Shown here: positions 7,605 through 63,206 of the stretch, piece by piece
Layout: each line of letters starts with the position of its first letter
How positions within the stretch are numbered: position 1 is the first letter of the stretch
From: an uncultured Alistipes sp.
GTDB taxonomy: Bacteria; Bacteroidota; Bacteroidia; Bacteroidales; Rikenellaceae
DNA: 64,000 nucleotides
Reading direction: 5' to 3'
NCBI GenBank assembly: GCA_944321965.1
Contig: CALUNH010000003.1
Location: 62,001-126,000, forward strand
Position numbers and translations under genes: made by a program
Notes under the pieces: model-generated
Databases searched by the model: none
Told to the model about the DNA's origin: nothing
What the model saw: the letters and a program-made list of their open reading frames with translations, nothing else

Positions 7605-8630
7605 TTACGCCCCGGCAGGATTTTTCTCCGCCTTTTGCTCCGGGTTTTTCTCCGTCTTCTTCATGCGGCGCAGCGCCCGGAGCATCATCCACCCCGACAC
7701 GACGCAGAGGACGACCGCCACGCCATAGATGCACCAATAGAGGGCCGGGCTTCCGATGAGGTTGATCAGCAGGGCGCTCCGGTGTCCGGTTTCGGGCGTA
7801 ACGAGCAGGATCATGAGCAGATAGGCCGCGGCGTTGTTCAGGGCGTGGAGGATCATGACCGACCACATCGACTCGGTAGCCAGATAGACGTAGCCGAGGA
7901 TCAGCCCCACGGCCGTGGCATTGACGACCTGCACGGGCTGGACGTGGAGCAGGCCGAAGAAGAGCGACGAAACGAGCCAGGCAACCGTGACACCGTAACG
8001 GGCGCGCAGGCTTCCGAGGACCACGCCCCGGCAGAGCAGCTCCTCGAAGATCGGCGCGAAGAGCATCAGCGAGAGCATGGTCCAGACTCCGCGGCCCACT
8101 TCGAGCTGGAGTTCGGGCAGCACCCGCAGCAGGGGTTCGAGGGCGATGCCGACGGCGAAGATCAGCACGAAGGCCCACAGCAGCAGCGTCGGGTTGAGGC
8201 CCCGGATCGAGAAGCGGGCCCAGCGTCCGCGTCCTCCGCGCGCGTGGCGGTAGCAGAGGACGCCGCCCAGCGCCGCCGACATCGAAACAAGATAAAGAAC
8301 GGCCATCATCCGCCCCTGCAGATCCGGAGCGGCGGTCCGGTAGTCGATTCCGAATCCGGCCGCCAGGAGTTGTCCGACAACGCCGACAAGGATCTGGGCC
8401 ACCAGTGCGATGCCCAGCATGGCCAGCACGTCCCCGGCCGTCGGGAAGCGGCTGGCGGTCGGTGCCGACTCCGGTTTCGATTTCGGGTCCTGTTCCGGTT
8501 TCGGGTCCGGCTTCGATTTCGGGCCCGGTTTCGATTTCGGGCCCGGTTTCGGGTCCGATTCGGGGAGGGGCTCCGCAACGCGCTTCTGCGGCACGGGCTC
8601 CTCCTGCTTATATGCTGTCCTTTCCGTCAT
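7605..8630 (-). CDS. CPBP-family intramembrane metalloprotease
   Basis: The 341-residue membrane protein carries the CPBP/Abi protease motifs in order: EELLCRG (EExxxR) near residue 195, FFGLLH (FxxxH) near 227, and HALNN. These form the intramembrane metal site of the Rce1-like family. Before the first membrane helix lies a Pro/Lys/Asp-rich repetitive linker (KPGPKSKPGPKSKP type) of about 35 residues. The ATG at 8630 is preferred because the upstream extension lacks family-like sequence. The substrate is unknown. It is divergent from parA. Confidence 0.85.
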   Translation of the reverse strand: MTERTAYKQEEPVPQKRVAEPLPESDPKPGPKSKPGPKSKPDPKPEQDPKSKPESAPTASRFPTAGDVLAMLGIALVAQILVGVVGQLLAAGFGIDYRTAAPDLQGRMMAVLYLVSMSAALGGVLCYRHARGGRGRWARFSIRGLNPTLLLWAFVLIFAVGIALEPLLRVLPELQLEVGRGVWTMLSLMLFAPIFEELLCRGVVLGSLRARYGVTVAWLVSSLFFGLLHVQPVQVVNATAVGLILGYVYLATESMWSVMILHALNNAAAYLLMILLVTPETGHRSALLINLIGSPALYWCIYGVAVVLCVVSGWMMLRALRRMKKTEKNPEQKAEKNPAGA

Positions 8631-8753
8631 AACGTACCTTGCAAGCCGGGCCTTTCGGCCGCCGAGACACCCCGCACCCCCGGGTTCGGCACCCGTCCCG
8701 GGGCGTTTCCGGATGCAGGATGCGGGGCTACCGCTTCCCGGCCTTGCAGCCTC

Positions 8754-8761
8754 CAAAGATA
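8754..8761 (-). promoter_or_regulatory. Candidate -7 promoter box for the CPBP gene
   Basis: TATCTTTG on the minus strand fits TAnnTTTG. It would give a leader of roughly 115 bases to the CPBP start at 8630. No clear -33 element is seen, so support is partial. This box and the parA promoter share the 298-base divergent spacer, where I see no gene. Confidence 0.4.
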
Positions 8762-8870
8762 CGAAAAATTCGGTTATGCGCCCCCCGAAATCCGAAATTC
8801 TTGCCCCGCATACCGCCATCCGCGCCACACCCGTCTGCAGGGGTCATTTTGCGAAAAGCTCCCCTGCGGA

Positions 8871-8902
8871 TTTGCACGGGCGATATTATTTGCGTAAATT
8901 TG
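8871..8902 (+). promoter_or_regulatory. Promoter for parA
   Basis: TTTG at 8871-8874 and TAAATTTG at 8895-8902 are separated by 20 bases, a full match to the Bacteroidota -33/-7 promoter. The parA start codon follows 26 bases after the -7 box, in good position to drive the parA-parB operon. Confidence 0.75.
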
Positions 8903-8928
8903 CCTGCTTATAAACCGAATCTGAAAAA

Positions 8929-9699
8929 ATGGGAAAGGTAATCGCTTTAGCCAACCAGAAGGGCGGCGTGGGAAAGACCACCACGGCCATCAATCTGGCG
9001 GCTTCGCTGGCCCTGCTGGGCAAGAAGGTGCTGCTGCTGGACGCCGATCCGCAGGCCAACGCCACCTCGGGGCTGGGATTCGACATCAATCTCGAAGGCA
9101 TATACGAATGCCTCGCCGGAGAGAAACAGCCCGACGAGGTCATTCTCCGCAGTCCCGATGTGAAGAACCTCTGGCTCCTGCCCTCGTCGATCGACCTGGT
9201 GGCCGCAGACACCGAACTGCCGAAAATGGAGAACGCACACTTCGTCATGAAGCGCGTCGTCGACGCCGTGCGTGAACGCTTCGACTACATCTTCATCGAC
9301 TGCTCCCCCTCGCTGGGATACACCACGGTGAACATCCTCACGGCCGCCGATACGGTGCTGATCCCCGTGCAGTGCGAATACCTCGCCCTCGAAGGTCTCT
9401 CCAAACTCCTCAACACGATCCGCAAGGTCAAGTCGAGCCTCAACCCGTCGCTCGACATCGAAGGCTTCCTGCTGACGATGTACATGCGCAACCGCCTGAA
9501 CAACCAGGTCGTCACCGAAGTCCGCGAACACTTCGGGGAACTGGCCTACGACACAATAATCCAGCGCAATATCCGTTTGGGAGAGGCCCCCTCGCACGGA
9601 AAACCCGTCATGCTCTACGATGCCGGGGCCACGGGGTCGGAGAACTACCTGAATCTGGCGCGCGAATTTTTGAAACGCAACCGCAGAAAACAGCATTGA
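8929..9699 (+). CDS. parA: Chromosome partitioning ATPase ParA/Soj
   Basis: The 256-residue protein is a standard chromosomal ParA: deviant Walker [10 protein letters not shown] at residues 11-19, [13 protein letters not shown] near residues 40-52, and Walker B-like FIDCSPSLG near 122-130. It binds ATP and DNA and moves ParB-parS complexes during origin segregation. The length and the immediate parB neighbour support the chromosomal rather than plasmid type. Confidence 0.97.
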
Positions 9700-9755: not shown

Positions 9756-10628
9756 ATGAAACCACAGAAGGGATTAGGCCGGGGACTCGACGCCATTTTC
9801 GGCAGCGAGGCCGTCGACGTGAAACTCAAGCCGATGAGTCAGATGTCCGAGATCGAGATCGCCGACATCATTCCCAACCCCACGCAGCCGCGGACGCAGT
9901 TCGACGAGGAGTCGCTCGACGAACTGGCCGATTCGATCCGCCAGCTGGGGGTCATCCAGCCCGTCACGGTGAAGAAGACCGACGGCGGGAAATACATCCT
10001 CATCAGCGGTGAACGGCGCTGGCGGGCGGCGCAGCGTGCCGACCTGAAGACCCTCCCGGCCTACATCCGCGAGGTCGATGACGAGAACCTCCACGCCATG
10101 GCCCTCGTGGAGAACATCCAGCGCCAGGACCTCAACGCCATCGAAATCGCCCTGGGGATGCAGCGCCTGATCGACGAGTGCCACCTCACGCAGGACGCCC
10201 TCTCGGAGAAGGTCGGCAAGAAACGTTCGTCGGTCTCGAACTACCTGCGCCTGCTCAAACTCCCCGACGAGGTGCAGCTCGCACTGAAGGAGGGGCTGAT
10301 CTCGATGGGCCACGCCAAGGCCATCGCCGGAGCCCCCGCCGAGCAGCAGCTGCGCGTGCTGAAACGCTGTATCAAGAAGGGACTCTCGGTGCGCCAGGTC
10401 GAGGAGCTGGCCCGCACGCTCTGTGAAGCTCCGGCCCGGGCGGCCCGGAACGCCGAGGACGAAGAGTATCCCGAAAGCTACTCGCGGCTGGTCGAACAGC
10501 TCGAAACCTTCTTCTCGGAGGATATCTCGATCAAACGCTCGAAGAACGGCGGCGGCAAGATCGTCATCGGCTTCGGCGACGACAGCGATATCGAACGCTT
10601 CCTCGAACGATTTGCCAACCGCTCCTGA
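9756..10628 (+). CDS. parB: Chromosome partitioning protein ParB/Spo0J
   Basis: The 290-residue protein has the ParB/Spo0J layout. There is an N-terminal CTPase/sulfiredoxin-like domain with GERRWRAA at about residues 85-92. A central helix-turn-helix follows (TQDALSEKVGKKRSSVSNYLRLLKLP is the recognition area), then a C-terminal dimerisation region. It binds parS sites and clamps onto DNA using CTP. It begins 56 bases after parA. I did not find a parS palindrome in this window. Confidence 0.97.
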   Translation: MKPQKGLGRGLDAIFGSEAVDVKLKPMSQMSEIEIADIIPNPTQPRTQFDEESLDELADSIRQLGVIQPVTVKKTDGGKYILISGERRWRAAQRADLKTLPAYIREVDDENLHAMALVENIQRQDLNAIEIALGMQRLIDECHLTQDALSEKVGKKRSSVSNYLRLLKLPDEVQLALKEGLISMGHAKAIAGAPAEQQLRVLKRCIKKGLSVRQVEELARTLCEAPARAARNAEDEEYPESYSRLVEQLETFFSEDISIKRSKNGGGKIVIGFGDDSDIERFLERFANRS

Positions 10629-10654
10629 ACGCATTCAAACACCCTCGGAACCCC

Positions 10655-11824
10655 ATGGCGAAGATCCGGTTTCTCCTGTTGCTCGTTGCGGCCGTCGTGC
10701 CGGGAATGCACGCCGCCCAGGCCCAACTCCCCCGCGGTGCCCGCAGCATCGTGCGGGGCGGCATGTTCCAGAAACCCGACTCGCTGCGCGCCAAACGCGA
10801 CTCGATCCGCTTCGCAGAACTCGCCCTGCGGATCGATTCGGCCCAGACGCTCGACTACGCGGCCGACTCGGCCGCCGTTGCCGCCCTGCGCACCGACGAC
10901 CTGCGCCTGCTCGACTCGATCGCCCTGTCCCGCTACAACGCCGCACTCCAGGGCATCGACACCACCACGAAACGCAAAATCCGGAAGAAAGGATGGCTCA
11001 TGAGCGACTCGATGGCGCTTTCGAAGGTGTGCTGGGCCTCGACCGTCCTGCCCGGATACGGACAGATCTACAACAAGCAATACTGGAAACTCCCGATCCT
11101 CTACGGGCTGGTCGGAACCGGCCTGGGACTCTACATCCACGAAAACAAGATCTACAAGCCCCTGCGCCGCCAGTACAACTCCTATACGGACGTGAGCCTC
11201 TCGCGCACGCCCGAACTCGACGCCCTGCAGACGAAGATGATCCGCAGCAACACCCGGCGGCAGGTCTATCTCGGGGTTACGATCGCCTCGTACATCTACT
11301 TCATCGGCGACGCCGCCGTGAACTACAAGACCAACGACGTCTCGTCGGTCAAGAAGGCCACCACCCTGGCCTGCATCTTCCCGGGTGCGGGACAGATCTA
11401 CAACCGCAGTTACTGGAAGGTGCCGTTCGTGGTCGGAGGCTTCGCCTCGATGATCTACTGCATCGACTGGAACAACCGCGGATTCCAACGTTTCAAAAAG
11501 GCCTACAACCTGCTGTCCGACTACGAACAGCACCCCGAAAACTACCCCAACGGCCCGACGGACGAATTCCGCGGACGTTATTCGGCCGACTTTATCAAAA
11601 ACCTCAGGGACAACTACCGGCGCAACCGCGACCTGTGTATCATCCTCTCGGGGGCCTTATACGTGCTGCAGATCATCGACGCCCATGTCGACGCCCACCT
11701 GAAGGACTACGACATCTCGGACGACCTGTCGATGAACCTCGAACCGCTGGTCAACTACACCTATGTCCCGACGCTGCAGGGGAACCGCCCGGTCTTCGGG
11801 TTCAACCTCAGCCTCAACTTTTAG
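10655..11824 (+). CDS. DUF5683 domain protein, exported or membrane associated
   Basis: The 389-residue protein has a signal peptide ending near AAQAQ, a Ser/Asp/Ala-rich segment, then two copies of a short hydrophobic motif: STVLPGYGQIYNKQYWKLPILYG near residue 128 and CIFPGAGQIYNRSYWKVPFVVGG near residue 240. The repeated PGxGQIYN(K/R)xYWK(L/V)P motif is the mark of DUF5683, common in Bacteroidota directly behind parB. Its function is unknown. It lies 26 bases after parB and 3 bases before the transglycosylase gene, so all four genes likely form one operon. Confidence 0.85.
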   Translation: MAKIRFLLLLVAAVVPGMHAAQAQLPRGARSIVRGGMFQKPDSLRAKRDSIRFAELALRIDSAQTLDYAADSAAVAALRTDDLRLLDSIALSRYNAALQGIDTTTKRKIRKKGWLMSDSMALSKVCWASTVLPGYGQIYNKQYWKLPILYGLVGTGLGLYIHENKIYKPLRRQYNSYTDVSLSRTPELDALQTKMIRSNTRRQVYLGVTIASYIYFIGDAAVNYKTNDVSSVKKATTLACIFPGAGQIYNRSYWKVPFVVGGFASMIYCIDWNNRGFQRFKKAYNLLSDYEQHPENYPNGPTDEFRGRYSADFIKNLRDNYRRNRDLCIILSGALYVLQIIDAHVDAHLKDYDISDDLSMNLEPLVNYTYVPTLQGNRPVFGFNLSLNF

Positions 11825-14754: not shown

Positions 14755-15909
14755 ATGGGAGATTCAAAAGAACCGATACGGCTACGGAAGCGAACGATGA
14801 GTACAGGGCGCACCTCCCTATACCTCGACATCTACCTGAACGGGGAACGGTCATACGAGTACCTGAAACTCTACCTCGTTCCCGAGGTGACACGGGCAGA
14901 CAAAGAGAAGAACCGGGAGACAATGAAGCTCGCCGAGGCGATCAAGGCAAAACGGGTTGTGGAGCTGCGGAACGGAGAGTTCGGCTTCAAGAACGACTAC
15001 GCTTCCGAGACGCTGTTCTTCGACTATTACAGGGCGATGTGCGAAAAGCGGCTCGGGGAGGAAAGCCGAGGAAACTGGGGCAACTGGTACTCATGCCTTC
15101 ACCATCTGCGCATCTATGAGAAACGAGAGAAGATAACATTCGCGGACATCACGCCAGAGTGGGTGCAGGGATTTCGGGACTATCTCGACAAACGGGCAGT
15201 AGCTTGGGCGCACGACAACAGGCACAGGGAAAAGGAATACCCGCTGTCTCGTAACACCAAGCTGTCGTATTTCAACAAGCTGCGGGCGTGTCTGAATCAG
15301 GCTTTCGACGAAAGGATTATCGCCCGCAATCCCATGCGTGGCATTGAGGGATTTCAGGCAGAGGAAGGGACGCGGATGTACCTCACACTCGAAGAACTGC
15401 AACGGCTTGTCAATACCCCGTGCGAGTACGACGGTGTGCGGAGAGCCTTCCTGTTCTCATGCCTCACTGGCCTGCGCCGCAGCGACATTCTGAAACTCAC
15501 ATGGGGCGATGTGCATCAGCAGGGCGAATTTACGCGCATCATCTTCCGACAGAAGAAGACCAAAGGGCAGGAATACCTCGACATCACACAGCAGGCGGCA
15601 GACCTCATGGGAGATCGTAGAAAGGCCGATGACCCGGTGTTTACTGACGTGTTCACGCCCGACTGCACGAACAAAACCATACAGAACTGGGTACTGCGTG
15701 CGGGCATCGACAAGAAAATATCATTCCATTGTGGGCGGCACACTTTCGCCGTGATGATGCTCGACCTCGGAACGGACATCTACACCGTGAGCAAGTTGCT
15801 TGGCCACCGGGAACTCTCAACCACACAGATATACGCCAAAGTGCTCGACAAGAACAAACAGGCAGCGGTGCAGCGCATTCCGAACATCCTCCCCAGCCAC
15901 AAGAATTAG
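14755..15909 (+). CDS. Tyrosine recombinase (phage integrase)
   Basis: The 384-residue protein has an N-terminal arm-binding-like domain, a SAM-like core-binding domain (residues ~95-190) and a C-terminal catalytic domain. The catalytic set is visible: Arg241 (TGLRRSD), His325 and Arg328 (HCGRHTFA), His351 (LGHRELSTTQIY) and nucleophile Tyr360. It would catalyse site-specific integration and excision of this prophage. It starts 195 bases after mnmE, and its 3' end meets the minus-strand repressor genes. Confidence 0.95.
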   Translation: MGDSKEPIRLRKRTMSTGRTSLYLDIYLNGERSYEYLKLYLVPEVTRADKEKNRETMKLAEAIKAKRVVELRNGEFGFKNDYASETLFFDYYRAMCEKRLGEESRGNWGNWYSCLHHLRIYEKREKITFADITPEWVQGFRDYLDKRAVAWAHDNRHREKEYPLSRNTKLSYFNKLRACLNQAFDERIIARNPMRGIEGFQAEEGTRMYLTLEELQRLVNTPCEYDGVRRAFLFSCLTGLRRSDILKLTWGDVHQQGEFTRIIFRQKKTKGQEYLDITQQAADLMGDRRKADDPVFTDVFTPDCTNKTIQNWVLRAGIDKKISFHCGRHTFAVMMLDLGTDIYTVSKLLGHRELSTTQIYAKVLDKNKQAAVQRIPNILPSHKN

Positions 15910-18683: not shown

Positions 18684-19580
18684 ATGAACGAGATTATCGA
18701 AGTGAAGCAAGCCGACATGCTTCAGGCAATCAACCGAGCGGAGGTGGACATACAGGTAGCCACCGCCAAGCAGTACCCGCGTGACCTGAACACTACCCTG
18801 AACAAGATTGCGACCTACGCCACGATGGACCGCGAGACGGCGGAGGACTGCTTCTACGTCCTGAGGCGCAAAGGCGCAGACGGCAAGACAAGCGTCATCG
18901 AGGGACTATCGGTGCGCATGGCGGAAATCATCGCCGGGGCGTGGGGGAATCTCCGCGTGCAGACGCGCATCATCGGCAACGACGGGCGCATGATAACGGC
19001 ACAAGCCGTATGCCATGACCTCGAAACGAACTTTGCCGTGAGCAAGGAGGTCAAGCGCCGCATCACAGACAAGTACGGGAAACCCTACTCGGAGGACATG
19101 CAGGTCGTGACAGGAAATGCCGCCGCATCCATCGCCTTCCGCAACGCCGTGCTGGCCGTCATTCCGAAGGCCGTGACGAAGAAGGTCATCAACGAGGTGA
19201 AGCTGGTGGCCCTCGGGCAGTCTATCGACGTGGAGACGGCACGACAGAACTGCATCGCCAACTACGCCAAGCGCGGCGTGACGGAGAAGATGCTCTGCGA
19301 TTACCTCGGCATCCGCAGCGTGGCAGAAATCGACAAGGAGCGGCTTTTCGAGCTGAAGGCAACACTCACAGCAATCAACGAGGGCACGACGACAGTGCAG
19401 GAGACATTCATCAACCCTGCTGCCGAAGCCCGGCAGGAAGCCGCAGCCAAGAAGAAGGCCGAGACGGCGCAGGACAGGGCCGCAGCAGCCATGGCACAGG
19501 CGACAGGAGCAGCGCCAACGACCGCATCAGTTCCCGCCGGAATGGACGCCGAAACAGGCGAAATCAAGGATAACAAGTAA
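18684..19580 (+). CDS. Phage recombination-associated protein (putative)
   Basis: The 298-residue protein contains segments typical of a phage family found beside exonucleases: VDIQVATAKQYPRDLN, EDCFYVLRRKG, EGLSVRMAEI, AWGNLRVQTRII and NAAASIAFRNAVLAVIPKAV. The C-terminus is an Ala-rich, flexible tail ending in acidic residues. Position next to a YqaJ exonuclease suggests a single-strand annealing or recombination-mediator role analogous to RecT/Erf. I infer this from context and cannot show it from motifs. The VR2-bearing gene lies between it and the exonuclease gene. Confidence 0.65.
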   Translation: MNEIIEVKQADMLQAINRAEVDIQVATAKQYPRDLNTTLNKIATYATMDRETAEDCFYVLRRKGADGKTSVIEGLSVRMAEIIAGAWGNLRVQTRIIGNDGRMITAQAVCHDLETNFAVSKEVKRRITDKYGKPYSEDMQVVTGNAAASIAFRNAVLAVIPKAVTKKVINEVKLVALGQSIDVETARQNCIANYAKRGVTEKMLCDYLGIRSVAEIDKERLFELKATLTAINEGTTTVQETFINPAAEARQEAAAKKKAETAQDRAAAAMAQATGAAPTTASVPAGMDAETGEIKDNK

Positions 19581-19603: not shown

Positions 19604-20236
19604 ATGGAAAAGATTGAGATCAAAAAAGAGAACATCCTCGCAGCATACGCCACGGCACGCGAGGCTGGAGCAGACAGCACGATGAAGGTGCTGGAGCAGC
19701 TATTTGGGGCGGAGACTTTCAAGCCCAGGGACATCACGGAGCGCATCAAAACCTTTGATGACGCATTAGATGAACTCGGAGAATGTCACCCGATGGTCGT
19801 ACAGTACAACGAGATTTTCAACAGTTTCCTTGAGGGCGCTGCAGCTTACAACAGCTGCGATATAGTAGCATATCTGAAACTCCGCATCATCTGCGCCGCC
19901 CTGAATGAGGGCTGGGAGCCTCAATTTACGAAGGACGAGTGGCGTTATTACCCATATCTGTGGCTCTACACCAAAGATGAGATCGACCGTATGAGCGAGG
20001 ATGAGCGAAAGGACATTGTCCTGTTCGGCGGTCACGCGAGGCACGGTGCGCTTGCGGGCTTCGCCTTTGCGAACTCGTATATCGCCCCCTCGTATACGAC
20101 TGCGTACTTCGGCTCTCGCCTTTGCTTGAAAAGCGACACGCTGGCCGCCTACTGCGGCAGACAATTCGCCGACCTATGGGCCGACTTCTATCTCATTCGC
20201 AAGAAGGTTGGGACGACAGACCAAAACGACAGATAA
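19604..20236 (+). CDS. Early-region DGR target protein with variable repeat VR2
   Basis: The 210-residue protein has an N-terminal helical domain (MEKIEIKKENILAAYATARE; DALDELGECHPMVVQYNEIF) and a middle part (WEPQFTKDEWRYYPYLWLYT). Residues ~139-175 match the template repeat: the frame after IVLFGG and up to YFGSRLC. About 36 residues follow the repeat (AAYCGRQFADLWADFYLIRK), so the repeat is internal rather than terminal. There is no signal peptide or structural-gene context. The fold around the repeat (GSRLC end) resembles the lectin-like scaffold of known DGR targets. The ligand is unknown. It sits 24 bases after the recombination gene and 20 bases before the exonuclease. Confidence 0.85.
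   Translation: MEKIEIKKENILAAYATAREAGADSTMKVLEQLFGAETFKPRDITERIKTFDDALDELGECHPMVVQYNEIFNSFLEGAAAYNSCDIVAYLKLRIICAALNEGWEPQFTKDEWRYYPYLWLYTKDEIDRMSEDERKDIVLFGGHARHGALAGFAFANSYIAPSYTTAYFGSRLCLKSDTLAAYCGRQFADLWADFYLIRKKVGTTDQNDR
20018..20127 (+). repeat. DGR variable repeat VR2 (remote copy)
   Basis: Aligned without gaps to the template at 54424-54533, this 110-base stretch differs at 18 of 29 template adenines and at only one other base (a T to G). Unchanged blocks include GTCCTGTTC, GGCTTCGCCT, TGCGAACTCG and TCGGCTCTC. It lies inside the coding frame of the early protein. The last three adenine changes are the same as in VR1, as expected of an initiation region that differs in a fixed way from the template. 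Confidence 0.93.
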
Positions 20237-20255
20237 CCGTAAAAACAGCAAGACC

Positions 20256-21197
20256 ATGAGTACAACAGTAATCAGACCGAAAAACCGGGCCGAATGGCTC
20301 GAATATCGCAAGTCGGGAATAGGCAGCAGCGAGGTGGCCACCATCGTGGGGCTGAACCCTTGGGAAACCCCCTACCAATTATGGAGACGCAAGATGGGGC
20401 TCGACGCCCCCAAGGAGGAGACCTTCGCCATGAAGGCCGGGCACTACCTCGAAGATGCCGTGTCGCAGTTCTGGAAGGACGCGACGGGACGCGAGGTCAT
20501 CAAGCGTTCGACGGGTGACTGGATCATCCGCAATAACGAACGCCCCTACATTCAGGTATCGCCCGACCGTACATACTGGCTGGAGGGCATGAAGCATAAC
20601 AGCGACAACAAGGGCATCCTCGAATGCAAGACCACACAGATGGCTATCGACGGGGACGACCTCCCTAAGCACTGGTTCTGTCAGGTTCAATATCAGCTCG
20701 GGGGTGCAGAGCTGACAACGGGGAGCATCGCTTGGCTTACACAGGGCCGGGAGTTCGGCTACCGCGACCTCGCCCTCGTACCCGACTTCTACGGATGGCT
20801 CGTCGAGGAGGTGGAAAGGTTCTGGACGGACAACATCCTCGGGAAAAAGGAGCCCGCCGCCGTATCGGTACAGGACGTGCTGCTGAAATACAACCGCCAC
20901 ACGGACGGCAAGATCGCCGAGGTGAGCGAGGAGGTGTTCGAGGCATACACCCGGCTGAAGGAAATCCGAAGGGACATGGCCGCTCTCGACAAGGAGAAGG
21001 AGGCGTTGGAGGAACGCCTGAAGCTCGGCTTCGGAGACGCCGAGGCCATAAGCTACGAGGGGCAGACCCTCGCCACATGGAAGGCCGCCAAGGACAGTGA
21101 GAAGTTCGACGCCAAGGCGTTCACGGCGGACCATCCCGACCTCGCGCGGGAGTATACCAAGACTGTAGCAGGAACACGGCGTTTCCTGCTCAAATGA
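20256..21197 (+). CDS. YqaJ-type phage exonuclease
   Basis: The 313-residue protein belongs to the YqaJ/lambda-exonuclease group of PD-(D/E)XK nucleases. The N-terminal motif RKSGIGSSEVATIVGLNPW is diagnostic, followed by GHYLEDAV, the catalytic SPDRT and LECKTT (D...ExK), and HWFCQVQYQL. It degrades one strand of double-stranded ends to feed strand annealing. A coiled coil follows at residues ~225-260. The ATG at 20256 is used because the upstream in-frame start lies inside the previous gene. Confidence 0.92.
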   Translation: MSTTVIRPKNRAEWLEYRKSGIGSSEVATIVGLNPWETPYQLWRRKMGLDAPKEETFAMKAGHYLEDAVSQFWKDATGREVIKRSTGDWIIRNNERPYIQVSPDRTYWLEGMKHNSDNKGILECKTTQMAIDGDDLPKHWFCQVQYQLGGAELTTGSIAWLTQGREFGYRDLALVPDFYGWLVEEVERFWTDNILGKKEPAAVSVQDVLLKYNRHTDGKIAEVSEEVFEAYTRLKEIRRDMAALDKEKEALEERLKLGFGDAEAISYEGQTLATWKAAKDSEKFDAKAFTADHPDLAREYTKTVAGTRRFLLK

Positions 21198-23002: not shown

Positions 23003-23968
23003 ATGGCAAGACCCAAGAAAAATAATGCGGATTATTTCACTCACGACGCCGATATGCGTAATGACGTGAAAATAAAGGCACTACGCCGTAAATTTTCCCA
23101 CACAGGGTATGCCGTATGGAATTACCTGTTAGAAACACTCACCGACAGCGATTTTTTCGAGATTGAGTGGGAGGAAATAAACATCGAACTCCTTGCGGCG
23201 GATTATGACGTATCGGTTAGCGAGCTGACCGAGATTGTTGAATACTGCGTAAAAATCGGACTGTTGCAGCGGGTTGGGAATAAACTCATTTCCCAGGCCC
23301 ACCAGCAACGGCTATCCTCTTTAATCGCAAACCGTGAACGGAAGCGCATTTCGGAGGAGCAAAACAAAAATATTACGAGTAATGGCAGAGTTATGGCGAG
23401 CCAAAACCCTGTAAAAACCGATGAATCTAACACAAGCGGCAACACAAAACAACATAGTAAAGGAGAGGAGAGTAAAGGAGAGGAAAAGAGAGAAGAAATA
23501 AGATATCCTTATCAGGATATTGCCGATAAGTGGAACTCGATCTGTGGGGCGTATTTGCCGAAGGTACTCAAACTTTCGGAGGCGAGAAAGCAGAAAATCA
23601 AGGCACGCCTCAAGGAGATAGGAAATCGTGAGGCATGGATGCCGACCATTGAGGCGATATTTGAGGAAGTGGCGGCATCGGACTTCCTCAAAGGCAGGAA
23701 TGACAAGGGCTGGACGGCGACATTCGATTGGCTGTTCGACAGCCCGAAAAATTGGGTCAAAGTCTTAGAGGGCAACTACAGCAACCACAGAGGGAGCAGA
23801 AAGGGCGCACAACAGCCCGAAGTTACACTCGGGATAGGTGAATACATCGATAACACAGGACGGCGCACATACGGCACAGGAAAGGCCACAATCCCCAATG
23901 ATGCGCCTCCCCGCCCGAGCGAACGTCACTGCTGGAACAGTTCAACGAATCAATGGATACTGCTATGA
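23003..23968 (+). CDS. DUF4373 (Lin1244/Lin1753-like) replication protein
   Basis: The 321-residue protein starts with a DUF4373 domain (YFTHDADMRNDVKIKALRRK; GYAVWNYLLETLTD), a winged-helix region akin to DnaD-type replication initiators. A charged linker (residues ~150-170) contains the repeated SKGEE element encoded by 15-base direct repeats. The C-terminal domain (YQDIADKWNSICGAYLPKV; WTATFDWLFDSPKNWVKVLEG) resembles DnaD/primosome C-domains. It probably recruits the primase-helicase to the phage origin. It overlaps the next gene by 4 bases. Confidence 0.8.
   Translation: MARPKKNNADYFTHDADMRNDVKIKALRRKFSHTGYAVWNYLLETLTDSDFFEIEWEEINIELLAADYDVSVSELTEIVEYCVKIGLLQRVGNKLISQAHQQRLSSLIANRERKRISEEQNKNITSNGRVMASQNPVKTDESNTSGNTKQHSKGEESKGEEKREEIRYPYQDIADKWNSICGAYLPKVLKLSEARKQKIKARLKEIGNREAWMPTIEAIFEEVAASDFLKGRNDKGWTATFDWLFDSPKNWVKVLEGNYSNHRGSRKGAQQPEVTLGIGEYIDNTGRRTYGTGKATIPNDAPPRPSERHCWNSSTNQWILL
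23456..23520 (+). repeat. Direct repeats and palindrome inside the DUF4373 gene, candidate origin
   Basis: Two adjacent 15-base units, AGTAAAGGAGAGGAG (23456-23470) and AGTAAAGGAGAGGAA (23471-23485), are followed by an AT-rich purine run and an interrupted palindrome ATATCC-N6-GGATAT (23503-23520). The layout of iterons plus AT-rich DNA inside a replication gene recalls lambdoid origins. The repeats also encode a simple charged linker, so they may have no function as DNA. Confidence 0.35.
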
Positions 23969-34629: not shown

Positions 34630-34863
34630 ATGGCAACGAAGAGAATGACACGGAAACAGCAGCAGGAGGCAGCGAAGGCCCTGCACACCTGCCGGGAATG
34701 CACGTCCAGCTACGACTGGCACGAGAAAGGCGCGGACGGCAGGCCGTTCATGTGCCGCTGCGCATACCACAAGGAAGGCAAGTTCAGCAAGTTCCTCTCC
34801 GACCCGCAGTGCGAACACTTCAACAGGCGCATGAAGAATGGCAAAGCAACGGAAGCTGAATAA
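34630..34863 (+). CDS. Small Cys-rich phage protein
   Basis: The 77-residue basic protein has Cys pairs arranged as a zinc-binding site (CREC ... CRCAYH ... CEHF). The family is unknown, but it is a common small gene between portal and MuF genes in Bacteroidota phages. Its end overlaps the MuF gene by 26 bases. Confidence 0.7.
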   Translation: MATKRMTRKQQQEAAKALHTCRECTSSYDWHEKGADGRPFMCRCAYHKEGKFSKFLSDPQCEHFNRRMKNGKATEAE

Positions 34864-36673
34864 GTGGGAGGAGGCGCACCGCCGCAACATGGAGGCCTAC
34901 GGACGGCAGATCGACGAAGTGTTCAGGTCTGCCGCCCGCGAGGCTGCCATGCTCGCATCCGCCGCGGGCGATTTCAGGCCAGACAGGCCCTTTTCGTTCG
35001 AGGACTATCCTGCAACACGGCGGAGGGTCGAAAAGCTGTTGTCGGGGCTGGAAAACAGCCTTACGGCGGTCATCGTGAACGGAGTGGAGGCGGAGTGGAC
35101 GCTCGCCAACAACAAGAACAGCGAACTGGCCAACCAAGTGTTCGGGGACAACGCCTCGCAACTTACCGAGGAACAGAGCCGGAGGTACTACACCAACAAC
35201 GATAGTGCAAGGGAGGCATTCATCGCCCGCAAGACCGATGGATTGAAACTCTCGGACAGGGTGTGGCGCTATACACAGCAATTCAAGACGGAGATAGAGC
35301 TGGGCATCGACATCGGGCTACGTGAGGGCAGATCGGCGGACGAGCTGAGCCGGGACCTGCGGCAGTACCTGAAATACCCCGACAAGTTGTTCCGGAGGGT
35401 CAGAGACGAGCACGGCAACCTCGTGCTGTCACAGGCGGCCAAGGCCTTCCACCCCGGACAGGGCGTGTACAGGAGCTCATACAAAAACGCCTGGCGGCTG
35501 GCGGTAACGGAGACGAACATCGCATACCGAACAGCGGACTTCCTACGCTGGCAGCAAATGGACTTTGTTGTCGGCATAAGGGTGGTTCTGTCCAACAATC
35601 ACACACTAAACGGTCAGCCATTCGAAGACATCTGTGATCAGTTGAGCGCACCGCTTGGCAGCAAGGCAACGAACGGCCGTGGCTGTTATCCGAAGGACTT
35701 CAAGTTCACCGGTTGGCACCCGCTGTGCCGTTGTCACGTCGAGACAATTCTGAAAACAGAGGAGGAGATGGCGGAAGACAACAGGCGGATAATGGCCGGA
35801 GAGGATGTCAGCGGCGAGAGCGCGAACACGGTCAATGACGTGCCGAGGCAGTTCAAGAAATGGATCGAGGAGAACAGGGAGCGGGCGCAGAGAAGCTATT
35901 CCGTCCCGTACTTTCTGTCGGACAACAAGAAGTACCTCCCGGAAAATTACTTGAAGCTCTGGGGGATGAAAACCCCTTATGCGACATACGCAGAGTATGC
36001 TCAAGCGATGAAGTACAACAAGGCTCATGCAGTTTTCACTGATGCACAACAACGAAACAACAGGGAACTATCAGATGCGCTTCCTGTCATACAGGGCAAG
36101 ATAATGAACTTCACAGAAGCGGACGGGAGCAGATGCAATCCAAAGTTTACGATTGAAAATGCGGAGATATTGGGATACCGTCATAACTGCCAGACATGTA
36201 CTGTTGCATACGAGTTACGTCGCCGGGGATTCAACATCGAAGCCGCCCCAAATCCCGTGCTGAAGGGGTATAAGAAATACAGAGATTTCGATAGATTTTG
36301 CAATGGGGAAGATATACAATGGACAGACCGTTTCTTGACGGAAGACGGGAAACGGGCGACCTACAAATGGTCTACAGGCATAAATGATACCGGGTTGTCC
36401 AAACTGAAATTCATTGAGGACAAGACAGCCGCTCAGGGGCGTTATGAGATTTATTGTGCATGGAAAAAAGGCGACGCACATGTCTTTATCGTTGAGCGAC
36501 AAAAAGACGGCAACCTGTTATGGTTTGACCCTCAATCAGGCCGCCGTGGAAGTGCGATAGATTTTAACGATGACATCAACGCAATGAGACACAACATAAT
36601 AGGAATTTTACGCATTGACGACAAGATGATAAACCCTGTATTTTCAAGTCGTTTCAAGAAGTCCGTAGATTGA
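34838..36673 (+). CDS. MuF/SPP1 gp7-like head protein with C-terminal papain-fold toxin domain
   Basis: The 611-residue protein has two parts. Residues ~1-320 are a minor head protein: LAVTETNIAYRTADFLRWQQ, then the MuF signature GWHPLCRCHVETIL near 290-300. Residues ~400-600 look like a Tox-PL (papain fold toxin 1) domain. Candidate catalytic Cys451 or Cys454 lies in HNCQTCTVAYELRRRGFNIEA, His548 in DAHVFIVE and Asp564 in WFDPQSG. Tox-PL enzymes are peptidase- or deamidase-like. A head protein with a toxin tail could be injected with DNA or act between bacteria. The toxin half is visibly more AT-rich than the head half, as if acquired separately. Confidence 0.8.
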   Translation: MAKQRKLNKWEEAHRRNMEAYGRQIDEVFRSAAREAAMLASAAGDFRPDRPFSFEDYPATRRRVEKLLSGLENSLTAVIVNGVEAEWTLANNKNSELANQVFGDNASQLTEEQSRRYYTNNDSAREAFIARKTDGLKLSDRVWRYTQQFKTEIELGIDIGLREGRSADELSRDLRQYLKYPDKLFRRVRDEHGNLVLSQAAKAFHPGQGVYRSSYKNAWRLAVTETNIAYRTADFLRWQQMDFVVGIRVVLSNNHTLNGQPFEDICDQLSAPLGSKATNGRGCYPKDFKFTGWHPLCRCHVETILKTEEEMAEDNRRIMAGEDVSGESANTVNDVPRQFKKWIEENRERAQRSYSVPYFLSDNKKYLPENYLKLWGMKTPYATYAEYAQAMKYNKAHAVFTDAQQRNNRELSDALPVIQGKIMNFTEADGSRCNPKFTIENAEILGYRHNCQTCTVAYELRRRGFNIEAAPNPVLKGYKKYRDFDRFCNGEDIQWTDRFLTEDGKRATYKWSTGINDTGLSKLKFIEDKTAAQGRYEIYCAWKKGDAHVFIVERQKDGNLLWFDPQSGRRGSAIDFNDDINAMRHNIIGILRIDDKMINPVFSSRFKKSVD

Positions 36674-52892: not shown

Positions 52893-54329
52893 ATGACAGC
52901 AGAACAAGAAGCAATCCTCGAACAGATTATCGAGGCTTTTCAGAATGGCAAGCGATTGAGCGACTTGCCTGATGTGTCGGAAACCAACCCGTTCAACCTC
53001 ATTTGCGAGGTACTTGAAAATGGCGAGAGTAAAAAGGCCGCGCTCGCAACGCTTCTGCCTTACATGGAGGAGGAATGCAGTTACGGAATCGAGTTCGATA
53101 CCTCCGTATCATCGCCTGCCTGCACCCGTATTGGCAACCTCTCCCTGCACAAGAGCCTGCCGATCCACAATCGCATGAAAGGTTGCCTGCTCAACGACGA
53201 CGGCGAGGTAGTGGAATATCTCAATCCGGCAAATTGGACGGGACAGACGCGCGACGGATCGCGGGGTCAGGTCATGGTAGAACTTCCCATGCACTACCGC
53301 AAATTCGAGACGGACGGGACGAAACGTCGGGTGCGTATCAGCGAGTACCCTCTTCCCGGCTATCACGTTGTCGGGAAAAGATATGTTTCGGCGTATGAAG
53401 CTACCGTAAAGCGTAGTACAACGACCCTTTGCTCGGTAGTAAATATGGATGCAGACTATCGAGGTGGGAATAATCAAGCCGACTGGGACGGTAGCTATCG
53501 TTCGGTATTGGGGAGGCCGGCGACACAGATTTCCCGTATCAACTTCCGTAACTATGCCCGTAAACGCAAGAGCGGTTCTACGGAATGGAACTGTATGACC
53601 TACGATATTCACAAGGAGTTGTATTGGCTTTTCGTTATCGAATATGCGACTCTCAACTCACAGGCCGCATTCAATGCCCAAAAGGATAGCAACGGATATG
53701 CACAGGGAGGTCTCGGAGATGGAGTAACCACTCTTGAAAGTGGCAAATGGAATACGTTTAACAGCTATTATCCGTTCATTCCTTGCGGTTATACCGACGA
53801 ATTGGGTAATGGCACGGGCGAAGTAGAATATTCCATGCCAGCCGAATATGATTCCTCTATCAAAAAAGTAAAAGTGCCCCGTTATCGTGGCATTGAAAAT
53901 CCGTTCGGGCATATTTGGCAATGGACAGATGGAATCAATGTACGCATCAGCCCTACCGAGGAGAATAGCGGAGACGGGTTGAGTAAAGTATTCGTCTGCA
54001 CCGATCCGGCCAAATTCTCGGATAGCGGATATGATGGATATACCCATGTAGGCAACGAGGCCCGTGCAGAAGGATATGTCAAGGAGGTGATTTTCGGCGA
54101 GGGCGGCGAGATCATGCCATCCGTAGTAGGTGGCGGATCTACAACCTATTTCTGCGACTATCATTATACCAACATTCCTACGACCGAGGCTTTGCGCGGT
54201 GTCCTGTTCGGCGGTAGCGCGTATTACGGTGCGCATGCGGGCTTCGCCTCTGCGCACTCGGGTCGCGCCCCCTCGAATGCGAATACGCACTTCGGCTCTC
54301 GCCTTTGCTTTTTACCGCAAAGCGCATAG
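52893..54329 (+). CDS. DGR target: lectin/FGE-fold tail tip protein with VR1
   Basis: The 478-residue protein has an N-terminal helical part (residues 1-55), a middle domain, and a C-terminal C-type lectin/formylglycine-enzyme-like domain: GIENPFGHIWQWTDGINVRI and VGGGSTTYFCDYHYTN lead into the variable region (ALRGVLFGGSAYYGAHAGFA to FGSRLCF). This is the fold of Mtd-like receptor-binding proteins, in which surface residues vary while the scaffold stays fixed. Position among tail fibre genes supports binding to host surface receptors. Confidence 0.9.
   Translation: MTAEQEAILEQIIEAFQNGKRLSDLPDVSETNPFNLICEVLENGESKKAALATLLPYMEEECSYGIEFDTSVSSPACTRIGNLSLHKSLPIHNRMKGCLLNDDGEVVEYLNPANWTGQTRDGSRGQVMVELPMHYRKFETDGTKRRVRISEYPLPGYHVVGKRYVSAYEATVKRSTTTLCSVVNMDADYRGGNNQADWDGSYRSVLGRPATQISRINFRNYARKRKSGSTEWNCMTYDIHKELYWLFVIEYATLNSQAAFNAQKDSNGYAQGGLGDGVTTLESGKWNTFNSYYPFIPCGYTDELGNGTGEVEYSMPAEYDSSIKKVKVPRYRGIENPFGHIWQWTDGINVRISPTEENSGDGLSKVFVCTDPAKFSDSGYDGYTHVGNEARAEGYVKEVIFGEGGEIMPSVVGGGSTTYFCDYHYTNIPTTEALRGVLFGGSAYYGAHAGFASAHSGRAPSNANTHFGSRLCFLPQSA
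54201..54311 (+). repeat. DGR variable repeat VR1
   Basis: This 111-base stretch at the 3' end of the tail protein gene aligns without gaps to the template at 54424-54534. All 18 differences are at template adenines (18 of 29) and none at the 82 other bases. Changes go to G, C and T. The homology extends a few bases upstream (CGCGGT against CGTGGT), where the one T/C difference lies outside the core. Confidence 0.96.
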
Positions 54330-54423
54330 CCCGGTAAGCGTCCGTGTCTGATACGTGTCGGATAATGAAGTTGGATTATAAACAGAGATAGTTATGACGA
54401 TAAAGGTTGGTCGCTCCCGTGGT

Positions 54424-54534
54424 GTCCTGTTCAGCGGTAACGCGAATAACGGTGCGAATGCAGGCTTCGCCTATGCGAACTCGAATAACACCCCCTCGAA
54501 TACGAATACGAACATCGGCTCTCACCTATGCTTT
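54424..54534 (+). repeat. DGR template repeat TR
   Basis: The template contains 29 adenines, ten of them pairs in AAC or AAT codons of the target frame. That is the classic layout that lets adenine mutagenesis reach many residues without creating stop codons. It lies 94 bases after the tail protein gene and 136 bases before the RT start. An ATG frame at 54394-54657 passes through it, but this may just be the template transcript. Confidence 0.95.
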
Positions 54535-54670
54535 AGAATGTCAGAAAGACAAAGATATAAGGGAGCGACGACCTTGCCTCTTGGCAGAAGATTTCAAGTA
54601 ACCCGAAAGGTGCTGGTAGGAATGCCTGTTGTATGGGCTACCGAACGCTCCGAATAAGAAAAGCAAAGCG

Positions 54671-55699
54671 ATGAAACGTATAGGGAATTTATACGAACAG
54701 ATAATATCAGTCGAGAACCTGCGGCTTGCTGATGAAAAGGCTCGCCGTGGGAAAACTCGCTCATACGGTGTCAGGGTTCACGACCGTAACAGGGAAGCCA
54801 ACATACAGGCTCTCCACGAGGCTTTGCTGACAAAGACATTCAGGACATCGCCTTACGAAGTATTTACCATATACGAACCGAAAGAGCGTGTCATTTATCG
54901 TCTTCCGTACTATCCCGACCGCATAGTCCACCACGCCATTATGAACGTATTGGAGCCGATATGGGTAAAGACATTCACGTATAACACCTACTCCTGCGTC
55001 AAGGGACGGGGTATAGAGGGCTGTGCCCGGCACGTCGATAAGATGATACGCAAATACAGGGGAAAGCCCATGTACTGCCTTAAAATAGACATAAAGAAAT
55101 ACTATCCGTCCATAAAGCACCACGTGCTGAAACGCATCGTCAGACGCAAGATAAAGGACAAAGACCTGCTGTGGCTGCTTGATGAAATCATCGACAGCGC
55201 AGACGGTGTGCCTATCGGAAACTACCTGTCGCAGTACCTCGCCAACCTGTTCCTTGCCTATTTCATGCACAAAGTGAATGAGGTTTGGAAGATAGACTGC
55301 GAGGAATACGCCGACGACTTCTCGTTTTACAGCGAGAGCAAGGAGGAGCTGCGCAGGTTCTTTCACGAGTTCGTCAAGCCCTATATCGAACAGGAACTTG
55401 AATTGAAAGTCAAGGACAACTGGCAAATCTTTCCTATCGCCGTGAACCGCTATGACAGGCACGGTCGTGGGCTTGATTATGTCGGTTATAAGTTTTACAG
55501 GAAACAAAAGCTCATAAGGAAGAGCATAAAACAGAATTTCTGCCGTGCCGCCGCCAAGCTCAACAAACGGCAACCGCCGCTTGACACGAAAGCCTACAAA
55601 CAGGCTGTCGCCCCTTGGTTGGGTTGGGCGAAGCACAGCAACAGCAAACATCTTTTACGAACCATAATTAAACAAGAGCATCATGCAAGCATTTTATGA
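54671..55699 (+). CDS. DGR reverse transcriptase
   Basis: The 342-residue protein has all core RT motifs. KPMYCLKIDIKKYYPSIKH is motif A. PIGNYLSQYLANLF (Ser187-Gln188) has the SQ in place of SP, the mark of DGR-type enzymes. YADDF (Tyr213-Ala-Asp-Asp) is the catalytic centre, and GLDYVGYKFYRKQKL lies in the thumb region. It copies the template RNA with errors at adenines and makes the cDNA that replaces variable repeats. The start MKRIGNLYEQI at 54671 is the family start; the longer frame overlaps the template ORF. Confidence 0.95.
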   Translation: MKRIGNLYEQIISVENLRLADEKARRGKTRSYGVRVHDRNREANIQALHEALLTKTFRTSPYEVFTIYEPKERVIYRLPYYPDRIVHHAIMNVLEPIWVKTFTYNTYSCVKGRGIEGCARHVDKMIRKYRGKPMYCLKIDIKKYYPSIKHHVLKRIVRRKIKDKDLLWLLDEIIDSADGVPIGNYLSQYLANLFLAYFMHKVNEVWKIDCEEYADDFSFYSESKEELRRFFHEFVKPYIEQELELKVKDNWQIFPIAVNRYDRHGRGLDYVGYKFYRKQKLIRKSIKQNFCRAAAKLNKRQPPLDTKAYKQAVAPWLGWAKHSNSKHLLRTIIKQEHHASIL

Positions 55700-56512: not shown

Positions 56513-56833
56513 ATGGCAAAGCGGTTCAGCGAACTCGGTATCAAGCAACAGGACGACCGAAAGATTTTCAACTGTCCGCAGGTGTCGGTTACCGACATCC
56601 TGAACAGCGAAATAGAGGTTATCGACTACCTCCCCGATGTTAAGACAAAACACGGGGAGGGTCGTTACCTCATACACTATCGGACGACCGACGGCAAGGA
56701 GGAAGGCAAATTCTTCACGAACTCCACAGCCTTGAAAAGCGTCCTCGACCAAGTTAAGGAAGAGGATTTTCCGTTTATAACGGTTATCAAAGCCACTAAA
56801 TGCGGCAATGGCAAGATATATCAGTTTACGTAA
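56513..56833 (+). CDS. Small tail-region protein, function unknown
   Basis: The 106-residue alpha/beta protein (IFNCPQVSVTDILNSEIEVIDYL; GRYLIHYRTTDGKEEGKFFTNS) follows the glycan-binding-like gene by 14 bases. No family is recognised. It does not look like the four-helix Avd accessory protein of DGRs. Confidence 0.6.
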   Translation: MAKRFSELGIKQQDDRKIFNCPQVSVTDILNSEIEVIDYLPDVKTKHGEGRYLIHYRTTDGKEEGKFFTNSTALKSVLDQVKEEDFPFITVIKATKCGNGKIYQFT

Positions 56834-61882: not shown

Positions 61883-61923
61883 TGGTGACATATTGAAAAT
61901 TATAGCGTTTGCTATTGTTTTGA

Positions 61924-62059
61924 GGTTTAGAAAAATCGCCAATTTCATCGAAGCCCTTAAAAACAATGGTGAATGCCTGCGTATCCGCGTGGGCATTTTC
62001 CTTGTTAGGGCTCCAGGTATTTGGCGATACCTTCTAAACCAATCAGGAATGCCCACGCT
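61924..62059 (+). ncRNA. Structured RNA leader with alternative pairings
   Basis: Long-range helices are visible. GGTTTAGAA plus ATCGCCAA (61924-61942) pairs with TTGGCGAT plus TTCTAAACC (62021-62040). AGCCCT (61952-61957) pairs with AGGGCT (62007-62012). AATGCC (61972-61977) pairs with GGCATT (61992-61997) around a GCG/CGC tip. AATGCCCACGC at 62049-62059 can instead pair over 11 bases with GCGTGGGCATT (61987-61997), giving a pseudoknot or a switch. A small CCACT/AGTGG hairpin lies just before the gene. It could be a riboswitch-like leader or a free RNA. Confidence 0.55.
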
Positions 62060-62129
62060 TCTTTTGCGCCCATATCTGCGAACAACGGCGAACCACTATA
62101 ATTCAAGTGGCATAACCCAAATAACAGAT

Positions 62130-63206
62130 ATGGATTTCAAGGATTCAATCAGGCAGCTTGCCGAGCGCATCGACACGCTAAAGGCAGACCTCCCTACGGA
62201 GGAGGCCACGAAGAACGCCCTCATCATGCCGTTCATCAACGCTCTCGGGTACGACGTGTTCAACCCACGGGAGGTGCTCCCCGAGATGTGCTGCGACATC
62301 GGCACGAAGAAAGGCGAAAAAATAGACTACGCCATACTCAAGGACGGCGAGCCTATTATCCTCATCGAATGCAAGCACTGGCAGCAGGACTTGAACCTGC
62401 ACGATAACCAGCTCCTGCGGTATTTCAACGTATCGAAAGCCAAGTTCGGCGTGCTGACAAACGGCATCATCTACCGCTTTTATACCGACCTCGCCGAACC
62501 CAACAAGATGGACACGAAGCCATTTTTGGAGGTGAATATGCTCGACCTGAAAGACGCGCAGGTGGAGGAACTGAAGAAGTTCCACAAGTCGTATTTCAAC
62601 GTGAGCGACATATTGAGCTCCGCCAGCGAGCTGAAATACATGGGCGAGCTGAAGACGATCATCAGCAGTGAGTTCTCCGCCCCGAGCCCCGATTTCGTCA
62701 AATACTTCGGCAAGCAGGTGTACGACGGCTTCTTCATGCCGAAAGTCGTTGAACAGTTTACGCCGCTCGTAAAGCGGGCAATAGGCTCCTACATCAATGA
62801 CCTCATCTCTGACCGGCTTAAAGCTGCCATAAAGGACGAGGACACGGTACAGACGGAACAGCAACCAGAGACGTCGGCAGATACAACGGGTAAGGCAGCC
62901 GCTCCGACGAGCAAGATAGTGACGACCGAGGAGGAGCTTCAGGCGTACTATATCATCAAGTCTGTGCTGCACGGAGTAGTTCCTCCCGAGCGGGTGACAT
63001 ACAGAGACGCGCAAACATATTTTGCTGTATTCCTCGATGACAACAACCGAAAGACAGTCTGCCGCCTGTATCTCGATTCGCCCACCAACAAACGGCTGAC
63101 ATTTCTTGACGACAGCAAGGCCGAGCATCACAACAAGATTAAATCAATAGACGACATTTATAACTTCGGCGAGGAGCTTATCTCCGCAGCCAAAAAATTC
63201 CTGTAA
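62130..63206 (+). CDS. HsdR_N-type solitary nuclease
   Basis: The 358-residue protein has the N-terminal domain of type I restriction HsdR subunits: ATKNALIMPFINALGYDVFNP, then GEKIDYAILKDGEPIILIECKHW with the D...E-x-K nuclease triad, and LLRYFNVSKAKFGVLTNGIIY. No helicase motifs follow. The C-terminal half (ELQAYYIIKSVLHGVVPPERV) is an unknown domain. Solitary proteins of this kind may defend the lysogen against other phages. One base separates it from the lipoprotein gene. Confidence 0.85.
   Translation: MDFKDSIRQLAERIDTLKADLPTEEATKNALIMPFINALGYDVFNPREVLPEMCCDIGTKKGEKIDYAILKDGEPIILIECKHWQQDLNLHDNQLLRYFNVSKAKFGVLTNGIIYRFYTDLAEPNKMDTKPFLEVNMLDLKDAQVEELKKFHKSYFNVSDILSSASELKYMGELKTIISSEFSAPSPDFVKYFGKQVYDGFFMPKVVEQFTPLVKRAIGSYINDLISDRLKAAIKDEDTVQTEQQPETSADTTGKAAAPTSKIVTTEEELQAYYIIKSVLHGVVPPERVTYRDAQTYFAVFLDDNNRKTVCRLYLDSPTNKRLTFLDDSKAEHHNKIKSIDDIYNFGEELISAAKKFL

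Follow-up and report, generated by a model that had tools for sequence, protein, structure and literature searches.

A probable early-region protein family as a second, non-tail target of DGRs in Bacteroidota phages

The DGRs of phages are usually presented as a means of changing the tail. The prophage described here raises the question of why such a retroelement should also have a near copy of its template in a small gene that lies far from the tail, next to an exonuclease gene, and what the product of that gene might bind. The recurrence of this early target suggests that phages apply targeted hypermutation to something inside the cell too. The family is well delimited, its members are small, and both their variable positions and a range of natural alleles are available, so the choice of binding partner can be put to a direct test.

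The window, that is, the whole stretch of 64,000 nucleotides that was analysed, contains a prophage region that includes an integrase gene (14755-15909) as well as genes for a portal and a tape-measure protein; a capsid match there is weak. The RT of the element (54629-55699, + strand) matches phrog_1423 (E 6.5e-113) and PF00078 (E 2.1e-16), and it carries the motifs IGNYLSQ and YADD, which we take to mark it as being of the DGR type. The template repeat (TR; 54424-54533, +) ends about 95 nucleotides 5' of the listed start of the RT, a TTG codon. The tail protein target (52893-54329, +) belongs to the tail family phrog_5302 (E 4.2e-143) and has its variable repeat (VR) at the 3' end of the gene (54201-54310, +). 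A 106-residue ORF situated 3' of the RT (56513-56833, +) belongs to phrog_19665 and may be a DGR accessory gene; relatives occur in 57 of the 101 RT-bearing sequences searched, which form a redundant set, and in many loci they are close to the RT. Two further genes of the window were recorded in passing. The gene that follows the portal gene (34838-36673, +) encodes a C-terminal papain-fold glutamine-deamidase toxin domain (PF15644, E 2.1e-12), and a gene near the right end of the window (61893-63206, +) matches the endonuclease family phrog_4225 and, more weakly, a methyltransferase family.

A repeat search of the window finds a single repeat family with three copies, at 20012-20128, 54195-54311 and 54418-54534. 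Over 110 nucleotides, the tail VR differs from the TR at 18 of the 29 TR adenines and at no other base. The first copy contains the early VR (20018-20127, +), which lies within the gene at 19604-20236 (+). Aligned to the TR over 110 nucleotides without gaps, it too has 18 of the 29 adenines changed, together with one of the 81 other bases (T>G at 20041), an adenine bias with a Fisher p of 2.9e-12. When both strands are scanned with the TR adenines ignored, the scores are 88 of 88 for the TR itself, 87 for the tail copy, 81 for the early copy and 42 for the next best position. This window-wide scan and the register comparison rule out a chance match as the origin of the early copy. The TR adenines fall at codon positions 1, 2 and 3 in the numbers 15, 12 and 2, and ten AAY codons are present in the reading frame, which is identical in the early and tail targets. 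The preliminary description had reported a 110-base template copy with this same tally of changes, 34 kb from the template and internal to its gene, with 36 residues after it. The register comparison agrees with the tally, the distance was measured as 34.4 kb, and about 35 residues, well conserved, were counted between the variable segment and the C-terminus of the intact ORF of 210 amino acids.

The pair of 3' homing signals of the VR and TR is named IMH and IMH*. At the last two TR adenines, both VRs of the window have the same non-adenine bases, as is also the case in the LoVEphage group of related records. Stems of at least 5 follow the VR in 44% of 78 loci, compared with 21% of 1185 control windows, a weak enrichment. 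A matched specificity of the early and tail VRs within each genome found no support: a comparison of five genomes from the LoVEphage group gives 8.2 alike of 23 adenine sites within a genome and 7.15 between genomes.

The next gene 3' of the early target encodes a YqaJ or RecE-like exonuclease (PF09588, E 1.1e-20; phrog_434, E 8.2e-78), the true start of which is probably inside the listed ORF (20208-21197, +). The gene immediately 5' (18684-19580, +) matches phrog_3657, and a homolog of it precedes the target in 21 of 80 loci. A replication initiator gene (23003-23968; phrog_345, E 9.5e-45) is on the + strand, in the same direction as the early target. The placing of the target between a recombination protein and a YqaJ exonuclease was therefore correct for the downstream gene, but the upstream gene matches phrog_3657 alone, with no Pfam family, and the name given to it was not confirmed. 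As judged from family matches, the immediate surroundings of the target consist of the phrog_3657 gene, YqaJ, a helicase and the replication initiator, and not of defence or counter-defence genes. Of the 80 loci, 42 have a replication initiator within 6 kb on the same strand, and by the same measure 23 have YqaJ, 22 have a helicase and 21 have the phrog_3657 gene; the neighbours were called mechanically and many loci are incomplete, so these counts are lower bounds. A helix-turn-helix-like cluster, labelled by eye, is present in 27 loci, and all of its 42 ORFs are on the opposite strand. A Pfam search of one member of the cluster gave no match. The same-strand replication genes and the opposite-strand cluster support the assignment of the target gene to the early region.

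The early protein matches the profile of PHROG 11581 over its full length (residues 1-203, E 9.2e-65). This profile also matches all 73 members of the family alignment at E 0.001, and most members have about 190-210 amino acids. Left out of this alignment, called A3, were the phage records L003, L004, L005 and L065-L068, together with duplicate, near-duplicate, partial, frameshifted, ambiguous and short rows (L011, L020, L021, L023, L028, L030, L031, L033-L036, L092, L116 and L125). A structure model based on the 73 sequences has a mean pLDDT of 80.5, with a confident helical N-terminal part and C-terminal helices. The variable segment, residues 139-165, has a pLDDT below 50 in this model, too low to reveal a C-type lectin fold if the segment sits on one. 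An earlier model from 24 sequences was poor (pLDDT 68.6). No fold in the PDB matches the early-protein model at E 0.001 or better; in BFVD, three uncharacterised phage models match it at E 0.001. Searches of Pfam, NCBIfam, PADLOC and PDB sequences with the 73 members gave no useful named family. Single family matches near E 0.002-0.01, and a sub-threshold Dam1 match of the window's protein (E 0.011), were taken as chance. Because there is no PDB fold match and no notable Pfam, NCBIfam or PADLOC family, the sequence lends no support to a counter-defence role. The protein is likely made inside the cell and cytoplasmic, as judged from the neighbouring genes and because no signal sequence is visible by eye.

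Homologs of the early gene were located in 8 phage records, 31 IMG/VR loci and 52 bacterial-genome loci, which by record title are mainly from Bacteroidales. An RT is present in 11 of the 34 phage and virus records searched, many of which are short. In eight of these 11 a template lies near the RT and differs from the homolog at 13-17 adenines and at 0-4 other bases; the remaining three (G026, G010 and G004) gave no template match. Among the bacterial genomes, 40 of the 48 searched contain an RT. Eight of the 52 genome loci are from genomes with no RT at E 1e-20, L102, L125 and L128 were left out, and 41 were tested for a template. For 32 of the 41, the genome itself contains a template that the homolog matches adenine-specifically, with 0-2 differences at other bases. 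Three loci match poorly (L099, with 10 adenine and 15 other differences; L103, with 11 and 8; L119, with 14 and 8) and six have no template match (L085, L088, L098, L101, L114 and L126). Some of the records and loci lacking a template match still carry an RT on the same contig. The further cases thus number 40 (8 and 32), with 0-2 other differences in 39 of them and four in one.

Pooling of these cases and the window gives a set of 41 in which 646 of 1086 adenine sites are changed, compared with 22 of 3154 other sites; the members of the set are not independent, the LoVEphage group being counted three times and L118 and L124 having one template in common. With the poor rows included the figures are 681 of 1150 and 53 of 3406; the scoring of the template search, which penalises other mismatches more than adenine ones, flatters the bias in both. 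The template finder discards long identical hits as being the same DNA, and the next-ranked template hit was counted for W03, where the top hit was the gene itself, and for G027, where it was the tail copy. As a control, the first 250 nucleotides of the gene were compared with the RT locus, and none of 30 loci matched.

Six records of the LoVEphage group contain five different early-gene alleles. Pairs of these records have 12-20 differences in the VR, all of them at TR adenines, apart from one identical pair with none; OY731433 and MW660583 differ at 20 positions in the VR and at none of the other 473 nucleotides of the gene. The virus contigs L008 and L011 have 14 differences in 582 nucleotides, every one of them at a template adenine of the VR. 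Between L006 and L087 there are 13 differences: 11 at adenines of the scored VR, one just 5' of the VR and one elsewhere. The pair L022 and L023 has no known template, and 14 of its 16 differences are inside the corresponding segment. L013 and L014 are less informative, because 30 differences outside the segment accompany the 12 within it, and L019-L021 are identical. The variation described is that between records, not between reads from one culture. The earlier claim of a non-tail second target in the early region is upheld by the adenine-specific VR, the 40 further cases and the variation among close relatives. On this sequence evidence the early gene is a genuine DGR target in related phages, and the gene at 19604-20236 is almost certainly the second DGR target of the window's prophage.

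In the genus of the window the family occurs in 5 of 180 genomes, and all five hold an RT of the same kind, which 48 of the 180 genomes hold in total (p 0.0012). Leaving out the genome of the window gives 4 of 4 and 47 of 179 (p 0.0043). The five genomes contain six family copies, each with a template match. The adenine and other differences are 18 and 1 in the window, 12 and 1 in G049, 9 and 1 as well as 19 and 1 in G184, 13 and 0 in G085, and 13 and 1 in G060, provided that G060 is the genome of locus L121. The family is thinly spread across the phylum: in an even draw of 296 phylum genomes it was found in the window's own genome only, and an RT was found in 89. This draw is uninformative on the co-occurrence of the family with the RT, because only the window's genome holds the family. 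A plasmid search with the first 414 nucleotides of the gene gave no match.

A distal second target is already known from one phage group and from four prophage species. The text of a 2021 account of Quimbyvirus (Benler 2021, PMC8008677) describes a DGR with a tail target and a distal, non-structural second target in that one phage group, and the window has the same layout, its target depending on the same template as the tail gene, 34.4 kb off and outside the structural module. The arrangement was described correctly at first, but the finding is less surprising than claimed because the Quimbyvirus arrangement was published in 2021. According to the same text, near-identical Quimbyvirus genomes have adenine-specific alleles, to which the LoVEphage-group alleles are similar. 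The records of that group also resemble Quimbyvirus in having methyltransferases and a tRNA ligase nearby and RT pieces in several stretches, and we infer that the two are equivalent. The Quimbyvirus target sits among defence-related genes, whereas that of the window is beside YqaJ and replication genes, and the text leaves the protein family unnamed, which here is PHROG 11581. In the text parts of PMC12629997 (Nature 2025), a second VR distant from the RT cassette, as in the window, is described for four species of inducible prophage; it is placed close to counter-defence genes, a DNA methyltransferase being one example. Unlike the present survey of the family, these parts name no protein family and give neither a structure nor the spread.

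In the Bacuni phages of Bacteroides uniformis, the text of PMC8143477 describes two targets, one of which, ORF 43, is distant from the RT. The differences between these phages are mostly in the VRs, and both products are read as adhesins. Both Bacuni VRs are at the 3' ends of their genes, whereas the early VR of the window is internal. Bordetella phage BPP-1, as presented in the text of PMC6199706, has a template, an RT, adenine mutagenesis and a tail target, all as in the window, but no early-gene target is described there. The tentaclin DGRs in the text of PMC10743442 diversify two unlike proteins from one template, as here; unlike the window, both of their targets are within the cassette, and tentaclin is read as a receptor-binding protein. 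The text parts of PMC12386605, PMC12135933 and PMC10053308 contain nothing on an early target, and a literature search for phrog_11581 gave no paper. No family-wide account was met in the text parts of the literature searched. What is new is that one protein family is targeted in many Bacteroidota elements, often near replication or recombination genes, and that the family sometimes takes the form of compact tandem genes adjoining the template and RT.

The Bordetella phage model of homing provides a likely mechanism for the observed anatomy, the adenine specificity, the recurrence of one family and the allele diversity of related phages, which is confined to template-adenine positions. By analogy with that model, RNA of the TR (54424-54533) would serve the RT for an error-prone synthesis that changes adenines, and the mutated copies would take the place of the corresponding segment of the tail gene and, as a separate event, of the early gene at 19604-20236. 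The variable surface of the early protein would in this way be randomised, and some phage variants could then block a range of host defence proteins, or factors of rival phages, in the course of infection. The preliminary description had also suggested such host or rival-phage factors as what the protein may bind, with small ligands as a further candidate. A two-target DGR whose early product is a small intracellular binder is the explanation preferred here, with a probability of about 0.7 for the whole. The more specific prediction, that the binder is directed during infection against host defence proteins or rival-phage factors, is put at slightly under even odds. It is a little more tentative still that Bacteroidota phages have in common one family of soluble, retroelement-randomised intracellular binders that act on bacterial immune proteins or on rival phages.

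The early protein might instead be a virion or injected protein whose variable surface serves host attachment or entry, as in the tail target. The text of PMC8144416 states that the phage DGR targets described are mostly tail or attachment proteins, and also that its own survey is blind to remote targets; moreover, the annotation of a relative in phage Versailles reads "tail protein". However, the early protein resembles the tail family phrog_5302 over residues 137-178 alone, and an hhalign comparison of the early family with the tail target covers 46 columns, so the label is probably an annotation artefact of the shared variable segment. The same-strand neighbours are often replication and recombination genes, and in BI-TP1 the early-type gene is on the strand opposite the tail gene, which makes a role in the virion or in entry improbable. 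The frequent proximity to YqaJ, helicase and replication initiator genes would also suit a modulator of the phage's own replication or recombination, with a variable face that recognises not immune factors but partners in host replication or repair, which would themselves vary. Nevertheless, the LoVEphage-group neighbours within a few kb include methyltransferases, an ASCH protein and a PAPS reductase, a placement too variable for a fixed partner, and host replication partners should seldom demand such rapid change; modulation of replication is marginally less improbable than a virion role.

Protection of lysogens from superinfecting phages, by binding of incoming phage proteins, is unlikely, though somewhat less so than either of these. 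Variable binders would fit variable rivals, and 52 relatives are from bacterial assemblies, where they may be integrated. The gene is directed as the replication genes are and opposite to the helix-turn-helix-like cluster assigned by eye, an orientation that suggests silence in lysogens. Finally, the early repeat could be a relic of an old domain transfer or of a past homing event, now fixed. Some homologs do have a shortened or altered variable segment (L030/L031 and L017) or no template match, and the variation described is between records of relatives and not within the window's own prophage. Against this, the early VR has a single non-adenine difference from the template in 110 nucleotides, and three separate lineages of relatives have alleles that vary at template adenines, beside a fourth for which no template is known; a relic is thus very improbable indeed.

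In the distant relatives L131, L130 and L134, tandem compact members of PHROG 11581 are situated directly 5' of the template and RT (at 10001-10791, 8094-8929 and 250-1148, respectively). The two copies differ from the template at 16 and 14 adenines and no other base in L131, and at 16 adenines with no other base and 13 adenines with one other base in both L130 and L134. A fourth locus, L129, is arranged in a related way and has further ORFs beside the RT. The tandem genes suggest that diversifying an early-type protein, and not the tail, may be the main task of the retroelement in such elements.

Two other observations were made among the relatives. The records OY731444 (L082) and OY725593 (L081) have an identical early region and different tail VRs, with a length change of 3 nucleotides in one tail gene, and from this comparison the early and tail targets seem to change independently. 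On one contig, two early-type targets (L118, 10031-10618, and L124, 9893-10462) are about 61 kb apart and correspond to one template (L167), with 15 adenine and no other differences in the former and 17 adenine and one other difference in the latter.
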